A stretch of DNA of 64,000 bases from Fibrobacter sp. UWEL. GTDB lineage: Bacteria > Fibrobacterota > Fibrobacteria > Fibrobacterales > Fibrobacteraceae. Position numbers and translations under genes: made by a program. Numbering within the stretch: the first letter of the stretch is position 1; each line of letters begins with the position of its first letter. Of the stretch, positions 33,801 through 40,388 are shown piece after piece. The stretch spans positions 1-64,000 of the forward strand of contig NZ_FRBE01000001.1 of the NCBI RefSeq assembly GCF_900142535.1. Direction: 5' to 3'. The notes beneath the pieces were generated by a model, which saw only the letters and a program-made list of their open reading frames with translations, did no database searches and was not told the origin of the DNA.

Positions 33801-34037
33801 CAGGCGGAATTTTTCCGGCAGGAGGGGCAGATTGCTTAACTTCCAGCCCCCTTCATAGCCAGGATAGGCATCCAGAGGGGCTAAAGTAATCAAATGACCG
33901 ACGCACCAGGTGATGCAGTGGTTCTGCCCAATAAGGCATCCGTCTCCCTGGGTGAACTTTTCGCCTTCTAATCGTTCCAGCATGGGTCTATAATGCTGGT
34001 TTGCTACGGAAGGTTTTTCGGCCACGAGTAAAATCAT
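30876..34037 (-). CDS. topB: DNA topoisomerase III with four C-terminal zinc/Toprim-Crpt repeats
   Basis: 1053 residues from ATG 34037, where the Toprim domain begins (MILLVAEKPSVA) and a -10-like TATCTT ends 7 nt before. The Toprim acidic triad is in GADAGREGN; the catalytic Tyr is in KLLTYPRTDSAYL. It is a type IA enzyme that relaxes and decatenates single-stranded DNA crossings. After about residue 680 come four repeats, each a CPxC zinc knuckle plus a domain ending in GF(K/I)xKKG, longer than E. coli TopB (653). Two palindromic repeats lie in frame within the gene at about residues 242-256 and 437-453. Divergent from and overlapping the leader of the FISUMP gene. Confidence 0.93.
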   Translation of the reverse strand: MILLVAEKPSVANQHYRPMLERLEGEKFTQGDGCLIGQNHCITWCVGHLITLAPLDAYPGYEGGWKLSNLPLLPEKFRLMEIESTKKQLSVVRDMMSKADVLVNGADAGREGNLIFDLVLDYTPAFRQKQIKRLWVNSYVAKDLDKAWKNLEDATERLNLSFAARLRQRADWMVGLNATRAYTLTAGRGKMISVGRVQTPTLNLIVERDTIVEQFKELFYYSVVGTWKGYQAQLLRPDRDAPHVTLSEAQSAESKGPALKVAIFEKEEPAQAVIDKCSPPEDAVITAIDVQQKKQFPQKPFDLTELQKEGNKRFKYSAQQVLDCAQNLYEKKLLTYPRTDSAYLPDTMKQEAYQLATRLATPAQQGLMRPESENFVFINSSKVTDHFAIIPTGEQPNGLPEMEENIYNLAKERFIQAWLKPYIWNEMEVTLTAPAGNVILSGEPSGSQSKDLEVFRLKLKQNEDLGFRALVKEEKKAKAKKKGDAADSADAKADDAGNNDDITNIVDAFPDWKTGDKAPFDALELQKKKKSKPKYYTEATLLAAMKTAGKQIENEELAEAMKDRGLGTPATQAGIIETLKKRGFIEAQKNYLVSTARGRDVIELMDEKVKSPEMTGEWEYKLSQVEKGNLTPVEFRDGIMDYVRELFVHLHEKYGSQFERETVTDALPCPKCSTPMEIAPWGYVCKNAECGFKAGHTIAGRTLSHAEMGKLLATGKSDLLSGFKSKKGTTFSATLVMAEDGNIGFEFSDEPRASTPTDYKCPKCGKQLLDSGNRLMCEGAAVAADATPTCDFTFYKTIAGHIMSDEEIAELFNNGTTDVITDFITKKGQSFSAKVVWDNDHKATFAFENDGHFHGTETKYKCPLCKHSLEENKNAIFCTGKGTSRDEQGNPCDCKFTLFKTVAGKKLRAADIKALLTSEKTELISGFKSKKGDTFDAFLKMSPMGRVEFEFLRRDFPCPACGDQLRFRKGSDEQGRNLSAYVCQNPHCNYGIPQVFYQREFTDDEMEALLKNKYSPVLEPFKKNETTFRAALEIGEGGKLGFNKLTVEVISKK
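32681..32729. repeat. Palindromic repeat in frame inside topB (second)
   Basis: CTAGATCCTTCGACTGC at one end and CTCAGGATGACA at the other match the intergenic copies at 3174 and 27477. On the topB strand it encodes LSGEPSGSQSKDLE, a polar, unconserved-looking loop, without disturbing the frame. Confidence 0.65.
33271..33313. repeat. Palindromic repeat in frame inside topB (first)
   Basis: CCCTTCGACTCAGCGC and CGCTCAGGGTGACATG resemble the GATCCTTCG...GGATGACA family. On the topB strand it encodes HVTLSEAQSAESKG. Confidence 0.6.
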
Positions 34038-34044
34038 GTTTGCA

Positions 34045-34073
34045 AAGATAATAAATGGTGCGAAAAAATCTAA
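34045..34073 (-). promoter_or_regulatory. topB promoter
   Basis: Minus strand: TTAGAT (34068-34073), 17 nt, TATCTT (34045-34050), then 7 nt to the ATG. It overlaps a plus-strand TAAATT (34071-34076) that sits 7 nt before the divergent GTG start. Confidence 0.5.
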
Positions 34074-34083
34074 ATTTGGACCT

Positions 34084-35721
34084 GTGAAAAACTTTTTATT
34101 CTTGATCCTTGCTTTTGCTGTTGCCGTGATGATTATCGCCTGTGGTGAGGATTCTGCCACATCCGATACAGGCTCAAAAGCGTCTGACAAAGATGAAGCT
34201 CCTGCTGAAACGATAGTGGTTGATCGTTATCATGACATTATTGAATACGATACGATTTTTTCCGATCAAAAATGCTATGCTGATGAATTTGATGGAATTG
34301 TGACTGTTACTTGCGGTGAGAATAATCTTCTTGTGTACAAGGGCTCCTGCGATTCTATTGCCTTTGATCCTAAAAAGAAGTTTTGTTACGAAGGACGTAC
34401 CTTAGATTTCTGTGAAGGATTTGCTTATAATCCCAATAGATTCTTCTGTTACGAAGATTCTCTCTATACATTGTGCGGTGACTCCTCCTATAATCCTTCA
34501 GAAAAATTCTGTCACAAAGAAAAGATTTTCCTTAAGAAAGATGGCAAGGAATACAACGCAGATAGCGTGTTCTGCTATAACGATTCTCTCTATACTTTGT
34601 GCGACGATTCCATCTATGATCCTTCTGAAGAATTCTGCCGCAAAGATAAAATCTATGAATTGTGTGATGGCAAGGAATACAATGTAGATAGCGTGTTCAA
34701 CTATAAGGATTCTCTTTATGTTTTGTGCGGCGACTCTATCTATGATCCTCCTGAAGAATTCTGCTATAAAGGAATTGTTTATCCGAAGAAAGATGGAAAG
34801 GTATACGATGTAGATAGTTTACTCAATTACCAAGACTCTGTTAGTGGTCTATGCAGGGGTGTGCGCTATGATGCAACCACTCAGTTTTGTTCCGATGGCA
34901 GAGTCCTTCCGTTGTGCGATGAGCTTGTGGAATCGAAAGGTCTTTTTTGCTACGAGAATAGCTATTACTCGTTGTGTGACGGTAAACCCTATGATGTAGA
35001 TAAATATTTTTGCAATGGAAAAACTCCCGTCCAAAAGTGCGAAGGGAAGAGATTTAATACGGATAAAAATTTCTGTGATGATGACAAACTTTATGACTTG
35101 TGCAATGGAAAATCTTTTGATCCTTCAGTAGAAACTTGCTTTAACAATACTATTCGTGGGATTTTTAAGGATGAACGTGATGATCAAGAGTATCGTTATA
35201 TCAGAATGCATAGAAAGGACTGGATGGCTGATAACTTGAATTATGACGTAGAAGGAAGTTTTTGCGGTGGCGCAGCCTCTCTGACTAAAGAAGGGGACGC
35301 TTGTGAAGTGTATGGGCGCTTGTATCCTTGGAATACAGCTATTGATGCTGATGGTCGTGATATCTGTCCTAATGGATGGCGTTTGCCTGCCAAAGAGGAT
35401 TTTGAAAAAATGATTGAAGATGTGACGATTAGATTCCCTGATCCGGGTGCGGTTTTAAAATCGAGATCGTCCTTATGGAATGCATCCACAAAGGCTAGTG
35501 CAGGTAAGGATTCATACGCTTTCTCCGCGCTTCCTGCTGGGTATGTAGATAGTGATCGAATCCATTCTGTAGGGGATGCGGCTTATTTCTGGTCTAGTAC
35601 AGAAGATGGCGATGCGAATAGTTGGTATCTTGAATTTACGTTTGATTCAGATACTGTGGAAGTTCCTTCCATATCCAAGCTAAATGCCCTTTCTATCCGT
35701 TGTGTAAGAATTGAAGAGTAA
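34084..35721 (+). CDS. FISUMP-domain lipoprotein with Cys-rich repeats (first copy)
   Basis: 545 residues from GTG 34084, chosen because a lipoprotein signal follows directly (KNFLFLILAFAVAVMIIAC) and TAAATT lies 7 nt upstream. After a short linker, residues about 70-355 hold about a dozen units of about 24 residues with the pattern C-Y-x-D-S-L-Y-x-L-C-x-D-S-x-Y-D-P-x-E-x-F. The C-terminal domain (about 360-545) is a Fibrobacter succinogenes major paralogous domain: DERDDQEYRYI, WMADNLNYD, YGRLYPWNTA, CPNGWRLPAKEDF, YFWSSTED and closing SIRCVRI. Probably outer-membrane anchored. The fold is related to C-type lectins; function unknown. Tandem with a paralogue 10 bp downstream. Confidence 0.92.
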   Translation: MKNFLFLILAFAVAVMIIACGEDSATSDTGSKASDKDEAPAETIVVDRYHDIIEYDTIFSDQKCYADEFDGIVTVTCGENNLLVYKGSCDSIAFDPKKKFCYEGRTLDFCEGFAYNPNRFFCYEDSLYTLCGDSSYNPSEKFCHKEKIFLKKDGKEYNADSVFCYNDSLYTLCDDSIYDPSEEFCRKDKIYELCDGKEYNVDSVFNYKDSLYVLCGDSIYDPPEEFCYKGIVYPKKDGKVYDVDSLLNYQDSVSGLCRGVRYDATTQFCSDGRVLPLCDELVESKGLFCYENSYYSLCDGKPYDVDKYFCNGKTPVQKCEGKRFNTDKNFCDDDKLYDLCNGKSFDPSVETCFNNTIRGIFKDERDDQEYRYIRMHRKDWMADNLNYDVEGSFCGGAASLTKEGDACEVYGRLYPWNTAIDADGRDICPNGWRLPAKEDFEKMIEDVTIRFPDPGAVLKSRSSLWNASTKASAGKDSYAFSALPAGYVDSDRIHSVGDAAYFWSSTEDGDANSWYLEFTFDSDTVEVPSISKLNALSIRCVRIEE

Positions 35722-35731
35722 GGTAGACGTT

Positions 35732-37270
35732 ATGAAAAAGAGTGTTCTCTCTCTCGTTATTGCTTTTGCTGTTTTTTTGTTGTGTGCTTGTGGAGAAGAA
35801 TCCGCAAAGCCTAATGAAGTTCCCGGTCAAACTGTAACGGACACGCTCTACGTAGATGTTTTTGATACGGTTGTTGTGGATAGTATAGATACGGTCTATG
35901 TGGATCGATACCATGATGTGAACGTCCGTGATACGGTTTATGAAGATCCTGACTGCGAGACTAAAGAAGTTGATGGAATGGTCACCATTTCCTGTGGCAA
36001 AAAAAATGTTTTTGTTTACAAGGGGTCTTGTGATTCTGTAAGCTTTGATCCAGCAAAGAACTTTTGCTACGAAGGCAAAATTTTAGACTTCTGCGAAGGC
36101 TTTGCATACAATCCAGAAAGATTTTTCTGTTACGACGACGTCGTCTATCCTCTATGTGGCGGAAAAACATATGATCCTAGAGATTTTAAATGCTTGAGTG
36201 GTAAACTTGAGCAGGTTTGTAACGGGGAGGAGTTTGATGGTTCCACTCATTTCTGCTCTGAACGCAAACTTTATGAATTGTGCAATGGTAAGGATTTTTC
36301 TCCTTCAACAGAATTCTGTTTCGACAAAAGGATTGTTTCCGAAAAATGCGGTGGGGAAGCCTATGATCTTGAAAAGGAATTCTGTCATGAAAATGGCGTA
36401 TACCCTTTCTGCAATGGAGCTGGCTACAATGCGACTGAAATTATCTGCGTCAACGGAATGTTTATGAAACGCTGTGAGGGCGTTTTGCTTGATGAAACGA
36501 AAAATTTCTGCTATGAAAACAAACAATACGAATTGTGTGGCGGAGAACCTTATATTCCGAATGTAACTGCCTGCGTGGATGATAAGGTTGCAATCATTTG
36601 CGATGGAACTTTTATTACTGCAGATGAACAAAAAGACAAGTATTGCCAGAATGGAAAGAAGGTTGCGGAAAGAGGATCTCTTCTGGATGAACGTGATGGC
36701 CAGACCTACGGAACTGTGGTGATTGGAACCCAGACGTGGATGTCCGAAAACTTGAATTATCGTGCTATCATGAGTACGGATGATTACGACTCCTTAAGTT
36801 TCTGTTCGGAGGAATTACCGAATTCTTGTGATGGCTATGGTCGCTTGTATCTGTTTGATGCAGCCATTGCCGGCGTTGAACGTGATGAAATTGCTGACGG
36901 CAATTTCCAGGGGATTTGTCCTGAAGGTTGGCATTTGCCAGATACCAGTGAATTTCGCATTATGGTTGAATTCGTTGGTGGGGAAGAAAATGCTCTGACG
37001 AGTTTGCGCACGACTACGGGTTGGGTAGATGGCTACGATGATGATGGTAGGAACGTTCCTGGCTCTGATCAGTTCGGCTTTTCCGCAATGGGCTCTGGCG
37101 TATGGGAAAAGGGGTACTCGTCAAATGCATATCTCCATACAGGCTTCTGGACCAAGGTGGGGCCGTATTATTTAGATATTCGTACGAAGAGGGATGAACC
37201 TGGGGTTTTCATCAAGCCCTATGGATATGAACATGCTCGTTCAATCCGATGCGTAAAGGATGAATCCTGA
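35732..37270 (+). CDS. FISUMP-domain lipoprotein with Cys-rich repeats (second copy)
   Basis: 512 residues from ATG 35732, where a lipoprotein signal begins (MKKSVLSLVIAFAVFLLCAC) and GTAAGG precedes. Layout as in the upstream gene: Cys-rich units of about 24 residues to about residue 310, then a FISUMP domain (LDERDGQTYGTVVIGTQTWM, LNYR, YGRLYLFDAA, CPEGWHLPDTSEF, closing SIRCVKD). The opening segment, with VYKGSCDS and FCYEGKILDFCEGFAYNP, is nearly identical to its neighbour, pointing to tandem duplication. Co-transcription is likely. Confidence 0.92.
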   Translation: MKKSVLSLVIAFAVFLLCACGEESAKPNEVPGQTVTDTLYVDVFDTVVVDSIDTVYVDRYHDVNVRDTVYEDPDCETKEVDGMVTISCGKKNVFVYKGSCDSVSFDPAKNFCYEGKILDFCEGFAYNPERFFCYDDVVYPLCGGKTYDPRDFKCLSGKLEQVCNGEEFDGSTHFCSERKLYELCNGKDFSPSTEFCFDKRIVSEKCGGEAYDLEKEFCHENGVYPFCNGAGYNATEIICVNGMFMKRCEGVLLDETKNFCYENKQYELCGGEPYIPNVTACVDDKVAIICDGTFITADEQKDKYCQNGKKVAERGSLLDERDGQTYGTVVIGTQTWMSENLNYRAIMSTDDYDSLSFCSEELPNSCDGYGRLYLFDAAIAGVERDEIADGNFQGICPEGWHLPDTSEFRIMVEFVGGEENALTSLRTTTGWVDGYDDDGRNVPGSDQFGFSAMGSGVWEKGYSSNAYLHTGFWTKVGPYYLDIRTKRDEPGVFIKPYGYEHARSIRCVKDES

Positions 37271-37273
37271 TTT

Positions 37274-37765
37274 TTAAATAGCCTGAAGCAATAATTTGGC
37301 GGCGTCGGATTGTAGGTATTCCTGCTCCAGCGCTGCCATTTTTTCGTTACGGTGGTTGGTTCGTTCGGCGTAAATCTTTTTGCCGCTGTTATAGAACCAC
37401 AGGTCGAATTCCTCGTTCACTACTTCGTAATCGGAACCGCCGTTAAAAACGTTGGCAACACCGTAGACTTCGTGATCCTTGCAAAGCAGGACGGAACATC
37501 CTAAAATCATGGAAAGGTTTAGACAGGCCTGTTCCAGCGTGGAGACGTCAATGTCATCATTGTTCATGGAAAACAGGATGATCACTTTCTGCGGGGTCCC
37601 CTTTTCGTCCAGTTCGCAGGGCATGAGCTTTGCATGGAAACCGATATTTTCAAAATCCTGGTGAGCCCAGGTAATTTTCGTGAGAAACTTCTTGATGTTC
37701 TCTACGTCAATGACTTGATCAACTTCGGGGAAAATGCGGCCGCTAATGGTGTATTCGTGTTCCAT
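37274..37765 (-). CDS. Unknown 163-residue protein
   Basis: I do not recognise this protein. It is soluble and acidic, with no signal peptide or membrane helix. The middle (QKVIILFSMNNDDIDV, then LNLSMILGCSVLLC) looks like alternating beta strands and helix, and the C terminus is a Gln/Ala/Leu-rich helix. It lies on the opposite strand between two FISUMP genes, stop-to-stop within 3 bp of the second. The ATG at 37765 has TACATT 6 nt upstream, again without a Shine-Dalgarno. Confidence 0.75.
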   Translation of the reverse strand: MEHEYTISGRIFPEVDQVIDVENIKKFLTKITWAHQDFENIGFHAKLMPCELDEKGTPQKVIILFSMNNDDIDVSTLEQACLNLSMILGCSVLLCKDHEVYGVANVFNGGSDYEVVNEEFDLWFYNSGKKIYAERTNHRNEKMAALEQEYLQSDAAKLLLQAI

Positions 37766-37819
37766 GGCCCTAATGTAGTAAACTATATTTTTATCCAGAT
37801 TTAATTGTTAGGAGTTTTT

Positions 37820-38515
37820 ATGAAAAGATTGTGTTCAGTTGTCCTTTCCGTATTTGCCATGGGTTTGGTGGCTTGCGGAGATAGTTCCCCGTCTTCAAGC
37901 GACGGCAATGGTTCTGCAGGCGGAACAAGCAAGTGCTCCGTTACGGTGAATGCCTGTCCTGAAACCCTGCCGGAAGGTTCCGTCTGTGATGCCCGTGACG
38001 GTCTGGTTTATAAGACTGTCACTATTGGTACTCAAACTTGGACTGCCCAGAATGCAAACTACTGCACGGGTACCAACTGGTGTTACGATAATAAGGCTGC
38101 CAACTGTGAAAAGTATGGCCGCCTCTACACTTGGAAATCTGCCAAGAGTGCCTGTCCTGATGGATTCCATCTTCCCGTCAAAGAGGAATGGAATGCTCTT
38201 GATGATTATGTTACTGCAGAAACGGGAAATCTGAATTACTCTCTTCGAGGAGCGGAAACCTGGACTCATGAAATGAGTACGCCTGGCGGTGATAAGTTCG
38301 GCTTTAATGCGTTGGCCGGTGGTCATTATGAAAAAGCATGGGGCTTTAATGATATTGGATTTAAAGCTTATTTCTGGTCGAACGATATTGACCCGACCAG
38401 TAATTCTCAACATCCTACAGCCTTGATTAGCTTTCTTTCTGGTTTTGGTACTGTCATGGGCGTGGGGAACAGCTTTACGGATTCAGGCCTTTCCGTTCGC
38501 TGTGTAAAGGACTAG
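37820..38515 (+). CDS. FISUMP-domain lipoprotein, short form
   Basis: 231 residues from ATG 37820, with TTAGGAG 6 nt upstream. Lipoprotein signal ending in GLVAC near residue 20, a Ser/Gly-rich linker, and then directly a FISUMP domain: DARDGLVYKTVTIGTQTW, NANYC, YGRLYTWKSA, CPDGFHLPVKEEW, AYFWSNDI, closing SVRCVKD. It lacks the Cys-rich repeat stalk of the two genes upstream, so it is the minimal form of the architecture. Confidence 0.92.
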   Translation: MKRLCSVVLSVFAMGLVACGDSSPSSSDGNGSAGGTSKCSVTVNACPETLPEGSVCDARDGLVYKTVTIGTQTWTAQNANYCTGTNWCYDNKAANCEKYGRLYTWKSAKSACPDGFHLPVKEEWNALDDYVTAETGNLNYSLRGAETWTHEMSTPGGDKFGFNALAGGHYEKAWGFNDIGFKAYFWSNDIDPTSNSQHPTALISFLSGFGTVMGVGNSFTDSGLSVRCVKD

Positions 38516-38527
38516 CTTTGGGTCCCC

Positions 38528-38556
38528 TTGCCAAATTGAATCCCCCTTGCTATATT
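38528..38556 (+). promoter_or_regulatory. leu leader promoter
   Basis: TTGCCA (38528-38533), 17-nt spacer, TATATT (38551-38556), then 7 nt to the leader-peptide ATG. Same geometry as the trp promoter. Confidence 0.8.
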
Positions 38557-38563
38557 CCTGAAC

Positions 38564-38641
38564 ATGAAGATGATTACCCTAGAACTACTAAGCTTGCGAC
38601 TTACGGATTTGTGTCCGGAAGCGGTTGCTTACGTATGTTGA
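38564..38641 (+). CDS. leuL: leu leader peptide
   Basis: A 25-codon ORF (start MKMITLELLSLRLTDLC). Six codons are Leu: CTA, CTA, CTA, TTG, CTT and TTG at positions 6, 8, 9, 11, 13 and 16. The clustered CTA codons resemble classic leu leader peptides. Downstream come a protector hairpin, an antiterminator, a terminator and leuA. A shortage of leucyl-tRNA would stall the ribosome near the CTA run, free region 2 (38617-38624) to pair with region 3 (38702-38709), and allow read-through. The ATG lies 7 nt after the -10 box with no Shine-Dalgarno, so it is probably at the mRNA 5' end. Confidence 0.85.
   Translation: MKMITLELLSLRLTDLCPEAVAYVC
38600..38624 (+). promoter_or_regulatory. leu protector hairpin and antiterminator segment (regions 1 and 2)
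   Basis: CTTACGGA (38600-38607) pairs with TCCGGAAG (38614-38621) with one mismatch around a 6-nt loop. GGAAGCGG (38617-38624) is perfectly complementary over 8 nt to CCGCTTCC (38702-38709), the 5' arm of the terminator. The pairings exclude each other. Confidence 0.75.
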
Positions 38642-38700
38642 ATGGTAAATCAGTGATTCGGTTTTAAAGCTAGAATTCAAGAGATTTAACAATAAACAAG

Positions 38701-38728
38701 CCCGCTTCCCATGGAATGCGGGTTTTTG
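38701..38728 (+). terminator. leu attenuator terminator (regions 3 and 4)
   Basis: CCCGC pairs with GCGGG and TTCC with GGAA across one bulged T, loop CAT, followed by TTTTTG and another T run. It lies 60 nt after the leader-peptide stop and 89 nt before leuA. Confidence 0.8.
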
Positions 38729-38768
38729 TTTTTCTAAAAAAGCTATCTTTATGCCGAAAAACTAAAGA

Positions 38769-38809
38769 CTTTGCGTTCCCGGTGAAAACCTTAGGGAAGC
38801 GGCAAGGAG
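38769..38809 (+). promoter_or_regulatory. Hairpin covering the leuA Shine-Dalgarno
   Basis: CTTTGC (38769-38774) pairs with GCAAGG (38802-38807), TTCCC with GGGAA, and GGT with ACC around a GAAA loop. The AAGGAG ribosome-binding site (38804-38809) is mostly inside the stem. GGGAAGCGG (38794-38802) is also complementary to the terminator arm CCGCTTCCC (38702-38710), so an alternative fold could free the site. Confidence 0.5.
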
Positions 38810-38816
38810 ATAAAAG

Positions 38817-40388
38817 ATGAATTGTATGATGGATTGCGCCGATCAGGCCAGAAAACCGTTTTTCTATGATGTCACGCTGCGTGATGGTAACCAGGCTTTG
38901 CCCAAGCCTTGGAATAATGCTCAGAAGAAGGATGTGTATCTCCAGCTGTTGAAGCTGGGCGTCCAGGGTGCCGAAGTGGGCTTCCCGGCTTCTAGCGAAA
39001 TGGATTTTGAATCTGTAAAGGAATTGGCTCAGCTCACTGCCGAAATGGCTGCCGCAGGTGACGAAGTTGCCCAGAAGGTGGTGGTTGCCGGTCTTGCCCG
39101 TTGCGTCCCCAGTGATATTCAGCGCTGCTGGGAAGCGGTTCAGTATGCTCCCAATCCTCGTATCCATACTTTCTTGGCTACTAGCCCTCTGTCCATGGAA
39201 CATGTGCTGCACATGACTCCGGAACAGGTGAAGGCTCGCGCCGTGGATTGTGTGAAGCTGGCCAAGTCCCTGGTGGGCGACCGCGGTACTGTGGAATTCA
39301 GCTGCGAACATTTTGGTGACTGCCTGGAAAACATGGATTTCGTCATTGACGTTTTGAAGGCTGTAGTGGAAGCTGGTGCAACTACCTTGAATCTGCCCAA
39401 TACCGTGGAACGTTACCGTCCCATGCTGTACATCAGCCAGATTAAGCAGGTTTATGATGCTCTGCCCAAGAATGTGACCATTTCTGTTCACTGTCATAAC
39501 GACCTGGGCATGGCTACTGCAGCCACCGTGGAAAGCTTCTTCGTGGGTGCAACCCAGCTGGAAGTGGCCTTGAATGGTCTGGGTGAACGTTGCGGTAACA
39601 CCAATTTCTACGAAGTTGCTCTGGGCCTGCACAACTCCGGCGTGGACACCGGCCTGCATCTGGATCGCATTTACGAAACCGCCATCCTGATTTCTCAGTG
39701 GTCTGGCATTAGCATTTATAGCCGTGCTCCGTTGATCGGTGCCGAAGCTATCGTACATCGTAGCGGCATCCATCAGGATGGCGCAAGCAAGACCAAGGAT
39801 ATGAAGAAGGGTGCATACCGCCCCATCGACTACTCCATCATTGGCCGTCACCAGAACGACTCCCTCAGCTTTACCAGCCAGAGCGGTCGTACTGCCGTGT
39901 ACGAAATCATCACCAAGTTTGGCTACAAGATGAGTCTCTCCGAAGCTGCTGAACTGCAGCCCATCCTGAAGGCTTACAGCGAAAAGGAAGGGGAACTCAG
40001 CGCCGAACGTGTGCTGGATGTTTTCCGTGAACAGCGCGTTAACGTCAATGGCCGCCTGATCTTCAACAATGTGGAAGTGGTGCCCGACGAAAACCGTTTC
40101 GTGTTCCATTTCAAGAAGGACAAGGAAGCCGTTATCAAGTCCATTACGGCAGAAGGTCCTATCGAAGCAGGCTTGTTGCTCATGCGCGAAATCGGTATGC
40201 CGGTGGAACTGGTGAAGTACCGCCAGGTTGTGGTTCCCGAAAAGGATACCCTGTGGGCCGGTCGTGGTCTGAGCCGCATTGTGCTGAAGGCTAACGGCAA
40301 GGAAGTGGAAGGCCGCGGTGTGTCTAGCGATACCCTCAAGGCAAACATGCGCGCCCTGTTCGGTGGCGTGAACTTGTTGTACAAGTAA
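38817..40388 (+). CDS. leuA: 2-isopropylmalate synthase
   Basis: 523 residues. The catalytic TIM barrel opens with YDVTLRDGNQALPKPW, whose RDGNQ binds the metal and 2-oxoacid, and HCHNDLGMATA carries the other metal ligands. A C-terminal LeuA regulatory domain (from about 400) normally binds leucine for feedback inhibition. It condenses acetyl-CoA with 2-oxoisovalerate, the first committed step of leucine synthesis. The leucine codons in the upstream leader support LeuA over citramalate or homocitrate synthase. AAGGAG lies 7 nt before the ATG. No other leu genes follow. Confidence 0.93.
   Translation: MNCMMDCADQARKPFFYDVTLRDGNQALPKPWNNAQKKDVYLQLLKLGVQGAEVGFPASSEMDFESVKELAQLTAEMAAAGDEVAQKVVVAGLARCVPSDIQRCWEAVQYAPNPRIHTFLATSPLSMEHVLHMTPEQVKARAVDCVKLAKSLVGDRGTVEFSCEHFGDCLENMDFVIDVLKAVVEAGATTLNLPNTVERYRPMLYISQIKQVYDALPKNVTISVHCHNDLGMATAATVESFFVGATQLEVALNGLGERCGNTNFYEVALGLHNSGVDTGLHLDRIYETAILISQWSGISIYSRAPLIGAEAIVHRSGIHQDGASKTKDMKKGAYRPIDYSIIGRHQNDSLSFTSQSGRTAVYEIITKFGYKMSLSEAAELQPILKAYSEKEGELSAERVLDVFREQRVNVNGRLIFNNVEVVPDENRFVFHFKKDKEAVIKSITAEGPIEAGLLLMREIGMPVELVKYRQVVVPEKDTLWAGRGLSRIVLKANGKEVEGRGVSSDTLKANMRALFGGVNLLYK

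Follow-up and report, generated by a model that had tools for sequence, protein, structure and literature searches.

Leader-peptide attenuation of leu operons is a classical form of control. In the enterobacterial leu attenuator, a Leu-rich leader ORF, a protector and an antiterminator that shares a strand with a U-tailed terminator are placed before leuA. In Streptomyces lividans, the leader peptides LeuL1/LeuL2, TrpL and IlvL are leaderless; Leu-rich leader peptides precede leuA or leuS, LeuL1 is without a typical terminator, and an Ala-rich leader before alaS (AlaL) was reported as new (PMC8079986). The trpL RNA of Sinorhizobium meliloti starts at the leader ATG and is a ribosome-dependent attenuator with a terminator (PMC7298713). 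LeuL of Campylobacter jejuni, a small ORF with five rare Leu codons (CUA, CUC, CUG) before leuABCD, is a proposed attenuator whose homologues were predicted partly from a ribosome binding site (PMC3847290). In the actinobacterial LEU element, a run of Leu codons before leuA pairs downstream, with a pseudoknot and pairing to the leuA Shine-Dalgarno and with no terminator (PMC1262725). The ilv-leu operon of Staphylococcus aureus has a genetically supported Leu-rich attenuator peptide with a terminator; its leader has a ribosome binding site, contains Ile as well as Leu codons and controls ilvD-leu (PMC5794164).

The Fibrobacter locus described here lies upstream of leuA in the window (the whole stretch of 64,000 nucleotides that was analysed). 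We consider it highly probable that it is a ribosome-mediated transcription attenuator, sensing charged tRNA-Leu and controlling leuA; the leucine leader peptide and attenuator named in the preliminary description are the best explanation of the locus, and one that comparison with relatives supports. The plan of ORF, protector, antiterminator, terminator and leuA is that of the enterobacterial leu attenuator (Rfam RF00512, Leu_leader), but the Fibrobacter leader ORF has no Shine-Dalgarno and begins at the predicted transcript start. LeuL1 and LeuL2 of S. lividans are Leu-rich and leaderless upstream of leuA or leuS, as the Fibrobacter leader is predicted to be before leuA, whereas the Fibrobacter loci, in a different phylum, have a terminator with a matching antiterminator that sets them apart from LeuL1. 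S. meliloti trpL has the start at the ATG that is predicted here, and a terminator, but senses Trp rather than Leu and is alphaproteobacterial. Rare Leu codons are held in common with C. jejuni LeuL, from which the ribosome binding site criterion and the phylum differ, and a Leu-rich leader with a terminator is held in common with S. aureus ilv-leu, from which the ribosome binding site, the Ile codons and the ilvD-leu target differ. With the actinobacterial LEU element the locus has in common a run of Leu codons before leuA for which a downstream pairing partner is predicted; the pseudoknot and the pairing to the leuA Shine-Dalgarno are features of that element, and the Fibrobacter loci read have a predicted terminator, which it lacks. 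The RF00512 covariance model gave the window leader 14.3 bits (E 2.1), below the gathering score of 50, so the locus would be the same kind of device yet undetectable as a member of that family; at both gathering and relaxed thresholds, the Rfam search returned no leader family at its gathering score. Our literature search, outside which most subscription journals fell, found no report of an attenuator or of leader-peptide attenuation in Fibrobacter.

The elements, their positions, their conservation, the rare codons and the covariation were obtained from the sequence and by comparison. The features of the window copy are:

38528..38533, + strand: -35 hexamer TTGCCA, read directly, 17 nt from the -10
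38551..38556, + strand: -10 hexamer TATATT, read directly, then 7 nt to the leader ATG
38564..38641, + strand: ORF of the leucine leader peptide (25 codons, 6 of them Leu), predicted to be leaderless
38579..38590, + strand: control codons CTA GAA CTA CTA (CTA is a rare Leu codon)
38583..38593, + strand: segment 1, AACUACUAAGC, lying over the CTA codons and forming the 5' side of the protector helix (leader MFE and centroid folds, z -2.4)
38617..38630, + strand: segment 2, 5' strand of the antiterminator, GGAAGCGG plus GCTT (duplex energy; covariation in the genus)
38626..38640, + strand: UGCUUACGUAUGUUG, 3' side of the protector helix, which encloses segment 2 and reaches the stop codon (predicted fold)
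38698..38709, + strand: segment 3, AAGCCCGCTTCC, 3' strand of the antiterminator and 5' strand of the terminator
38713..38733, + strand: segment 4, 3' strand of the terminator, GGAATGCGGG, with the T-rich tail TTTTTGTTTTT
38769..38809, + strand: hairpin CTTTGCGTTCCC ... GGGAAGCGGCAAGG, which overlaps the Shine-Dalgarno of leuA, AAGGAG (per-species folds)
38817..40388, + strand: leuA, 2-isopropylmalate synthase (LeuA2 type), the putative regulated gene

The promoter TTGCCA-17-TATATT and the 25-codon ORF with six Leu codons, three of them CTA, can be read directly where the preliminary description had put them. With a score of 10/12 the promoter is the joint best promoter-like site in the surrounding 10 kb, and the ORF (ATG 38564, TGA 38641) encodes the peptide MKMITLELLSLRLTDLCPEAVAYVC, its Leu codons being, in order, CTA CTA CTA TTG CTT TTG. 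Among the Leu codons of 21 window genes CTA accounts for 4.7%, against three of six in the window leader; its share in the other leaders of the genus is 37.5%, an 8-fold enrichment over genes. By itself, a Leu-rich ORF is unimpressive against shuffles of the window region, 447 of 5000 of which contain an ATG-initiated ORF, 12-30 codons long, with six Leu or more; a promoter with an ATG 6-7 nt past the -10 and a short ORF with at least four Leu occurred in 18 of 5000. This spacing, overlooked in the preliminary description, recurs in nearly every homologue, where the ATG lies 6-8 nt past the end of the -10 (in L022 apparently about 10 nt) and a -35 TTGCCA (or TTGNNN) stands 17 nt ahead of it in nearly all. 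Promoter spacing alone predicts that transcription starts at 38563/38564, that is, at the leader ATG or one base earlier; because the transcript would begin there, a Shine-Dalgarno would be impossible for the leader ORF, and the mRNA that encodes the peptide is predicted to be leaderless.

The octamer GGAAGCGG (38617-38624) had been described as pairing perfectly with 38702-38709, and it is the exact complement of CCGCTTCC at that position, the duplex being lengthened by GCTT at 38627-38630 with AAGC at 38698-38701. Together, GGAAGCGG and GCTT form with AAGCCCGCTTCC a duplex of -17.8 kcal/mol, equalled by 1 of 200 shuffles. The assignment of 38702-38709 to the 5' arm of a terminator with a T run is also borne out: AAGCCCGCTTCC-CAT-GGAATGCGGGTTT, followed by TTGTTTTT, folds at -15.5 kcal/mol (z -3.8; 0 of 200 shuffles). 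Folding of the region 38617-38709 gives z -3.1, and that of the whole leader z -3.2. For the protector the outcome is mixed. A helix is predicted in the leader, but the pair CTTACGGA (38600-38607) with TCCGGAAG (38614-38621), as drawn previously, is interrupted by an A.G mismatch, and folding favours another arrangement, in which CGGAU/GUCCG lies within a longer helix that uses Leu codons. In this predicted fold the stretch CTA-CTA-AGC (38583-38593) pairs with 38626-38640 around segment 2, the partner strand being GCUUACGUAUG. Because of the mismatch in the other pair, the putative protector of the window is better drawn as this Leu-codon helix.

The identity of the downstream enzyme, previously read as LeuA, is independently supported: the product scores 522 bits against NCBIfam NF042434 LeuA2 (cut-off 500) and contains the LeuA allosteric domain, and the start at 38817 is preceded by AAGGAG. 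This confirms a leucine-pathway LeuA, a useful result because HMGL-like synthases are prone to mis-assignment; the amino acid predicted to be sensed matches the pathway of the gene. Most Fibrobacter leuA leaders also carry the hairpin over the leuA Shine-Dalgarno, of the form CUU(U)GC...GCAAGG with variable inner pairs and modest z-scores in the genus (-2.7 to +0.5), which might add a further layer of control at translation. The window version of this hairpin contains GGGAAGCGG, which is complementary to the 5' strand of the terminator.

A LeuA match was found in 60 of 60 relatives searched, and upstream DNA was read at 36 genus loci (named Fibrobacter records included) and at 13 more, which belong to three other families within the class. 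The preliminary description was to be abandoned if the leader ORF proved not to be conserved or its Leu codons had been replaced in close relatives. Neither is the case: a Leu-rich leader ORF is present at 36 of 36 readable Fibrobacter leuA loci and at the 13 loci of the other families, and Leu is retained through synonymous codons, the first Leu of the core being CTA in 6, TTG in 16, CTG in 5 and CTT in 7. At the genus and other-family loci alike the ORF ends near a segment complementary to the 5' arm of the terminator, which is itself predicted at the loci read. Typical genus leaders are MRKNLNLRLLLCIAHGARF or MNKILNLRLINLLGCASGARAGF, and those of the other families are shorter, for example MSKAHAQLLLLGLSG or MTFTAPANTLGLLLSLLG. 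A promoter with a leaderless short ORF and at least four Leu occurs in 44 of the 49 regions ahead of leuA, where 0.02 would be expected, and TTGnnn-16/18-TAnnnT-6/7-ATG ahead of a short ORF in 45 of 49 against 0.24 expected, related genomes among the 49 not being independent, though the families are distant. A genome of family f4 with a non-orthologous leuA has the leader MTQTIQQSLFLLLQLHKG in an equivalent setting. Family f4, of the same class, excepted, the pattern search gave no such leader at LeuA homologues in other classes of the phylum, nor was a leaderless leader found at the LeuA homologues of Gastranaerophilales and Dependentiae (49-52% identity). Possible leaderless Leu-rich ORFs precede leuA in Burkholderia territorii, Pseudaestuariivita rosea and a Burkholderiaceae MAG (L227, L202 and L226).

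Covariation, assessed by pair counting, is clearest for the antiterminator. Across 18 distinct genus sequences, segment 2:3 pairs are formed in 95% of cells (33-53% in slid controls), with 11 double-changed cells (0 of 500 shuffles) and one position showing five pair types. For the Leu-codon protector the paired share of genus cells is 85.6%, a value reached by 26 of 500 shuffles, with moderate covariation; the conservation of this helix is weaker than that of the antiterminator. The terminator gives no covariation because its pairs hardly vary in the genus. Each sequence of family f3 can fold a protector (Leu codons with stop codon), an antiterminator and a terminator, 98-100% of cells being paired with a few compensatory changes, segment 2:3 among the pairings that show them; taken by itself, the 2:3 duplex does not exceed shuffles in strength at most of these loci. 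Spacing is telling as well, since segment 2 keeps a constant position with respect to the leader stop and the Leu codons. Most Leu codons lie 14-42 nt ahead of segment 2, so that a ribosome stalled there would leave segment 2 free, and the genus stop codons lie -10 to +12 nt from the end of segment 2, where a ribosome at the stop would cover or abut it.

We infer the start site, stalling, termination and the leucine response to be as follows. Transcription would begin at the leader ATG or one base earlier, and a ribosome would bind the leaderless 5' end and trail RNA polymerase. When leucine is sufficient, the ribosome would pass the rare CTA codons and reach the stop; its presence there, together with the re-formed Leu-codon helix, would make segment 2 (GGAAGCGG) unavailable, segments 3 and 4 would form the terminator, and an RNA of roughly 170 nt would be released. 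When leucine is scarce, the ribosome would stall at the CTA codons, opening the protector helix and leaving segment 2 uncovered, which would pair with segment 3 before segment 4 is synthesised, so blocking the terminator and allowing transcription of leuA. If this is true, disruption of GGAAGCGG would lock termination, a compensatory change in CCGCTTCC/GGAATGCGG would restore switching, and replacement of CTA by a non-Leu codon would abolish the leucine response.

Could the hairpin instead be the terminator of the upstream FISUMP gene, with the small ORF and the complementarity arising by chance? That gene ends at 38515, just 12 nt before the -35, is oriented towards leuA and has a terminator-like hairpin downstream. 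Yet the hairpin lies past the promoter, segment 2:3 covaries, and the feature recurs in the 44 of 49 regions counted above. Moreover, the gene 5' of the cassette varies among Fibrobacter lineages in kind and direction, sometimes lying on the opposite strand, whereas leuA keeps its promoter, leader and terminator. We reject an upstream-gene terminator on this last ground, and regard it as extremely improbable. That the leader acts mainly on translation or in trans, whether because the RNA (or the peptide) that is released serves as a small RNA or because regulation is exerted at the Shine-Dalgarno hairpin, seems very unlikely. The recurrence of that hairpin in the genus speaks for such action, as does the precedent of S. 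meliloti, where both the RNA and the peptide of trpL have trans activity (PMC7298713), but the hairpin is not recognised in family f3, although the leader persists there, and the Leu-rich ORF and the strand common to terminator and antiterminator indicate the level of transcription. The two modes of action may both hold.

The window copy itself is diverged, and it is conceivable, if very unlikely, that an attenuator general to the class has here been partly lost, leaving a weak or absent leuA response. Compared with relatives whose LeuA is 95-96% identical, the window leader has lost the core LRLLL and its Leu codons are spread; its peptide fails to align with the DLRLLLC core of the closest relatives, a different helix takes the place of the protector conserved in the genus, and the stop lies about 15 nt past GGAAGCGG (L010 is similar). 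Against such a loss, the window keeps the promoter, six Leu codons and three rare CTA, possesses a predicted Leu-codon helix of its own, and has a 2:3 duplex of -17.8 kcal/mol, stronger than the roughly -13 kcal/mol of its nearest relatives. Two observations concern the neighbouring DNA: FISUMP-domain genes, two of them confirmed, occupy 34036-38515 immediately 5' of leuA, and the DNA 5' of the window attenuator has no match in any relative. An insertion or rearrangement adjoining the leader is suggested, and may explain the divergence of the window leader.

Other leaders in leaderless settings were seen in the same genome. Before trpE, the leader MKMNNALTVALKVNFDGRWWRSL (window 6541-6241, - strand) has a WW pair conserved in 14 relatives, and CCAGACTC, from the stem and loop of the terminator, is a possible pairing partner for GAGTCTGG. 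The leuA locus had been said to match the trp attenuator part for part; the plan and the leaderless start do agree, but the trp antiterminator is unconfirmed by the arm-only duplex test, which gave nothing significant on trpE leaders, probably because the pairing extends into the terminator loop. A second Trp leader, MKTSNAIRFNNWWWRSSK, leaderless and directly 5' of trpB (L104 / L245; contig 25 of the same genome, 37.2 kb), has a GAGTCCG/CGGACTC pairing into a terminator. An Ala-rich leader, MKQIFEQIIIAAAIAAGAAEARACVKSCATVQEL (10 Ala, 5 Ile; window 58064-57773, - strand), precedes a PLP aminotransferase (PRK06855) and has a terminator and a complementary segment downstream. Of 16 other genus loci with the aminotransferase orthologue, 10 have an Ala-rich leader before it, nine of these with a matching antiterminator, which covaries from GACUGUUC/GGGCAGUC to GGGCUGUCC/GGGCAGCCC; this leader is likely an alanine attenuator. 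Upstream of ilvB in family f4 (L121), the leaderless leader ORF MNNLRLVTLVVSVVVVVDHSLPLG is a probable Val/Leu attenuator, and at Fibrobacter ilvB and hisG the pattern search found no leaderless leader. Ordinary genes of the genome also fit the promoter-spacing pattern, so attenuators are probably not the only cases of leaderless initiation here. A speculative proposal, which we hold to be rather doubtful, is that the amino-acid attenuators of Fibrobacterota (leuA, trpE, trpB and the Ala-rich leader here; leuA and ilvB in other families) form a leaderless regulon, all translated from the first RNA base, and that the switch thereby receives a second input from leaderless initiation itself (30S versus 70S entry, IF2/IF3 balance, stress).

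Backed by comparison, the leuA leader would add to the range of ribosome-mediated attenuation a phylum from which the literature searched contains no report, and would provide a simple, deeply conserved case of a sensing peptide predicted to lack a ribosome binding site. In E. coli trp and leu, ribosome and RNA polymerase are synchronised via the leader and a pause; the Fibrobacter leaders may let one ask how a leaderless start synchronises the ribosome with RNA polymerase.
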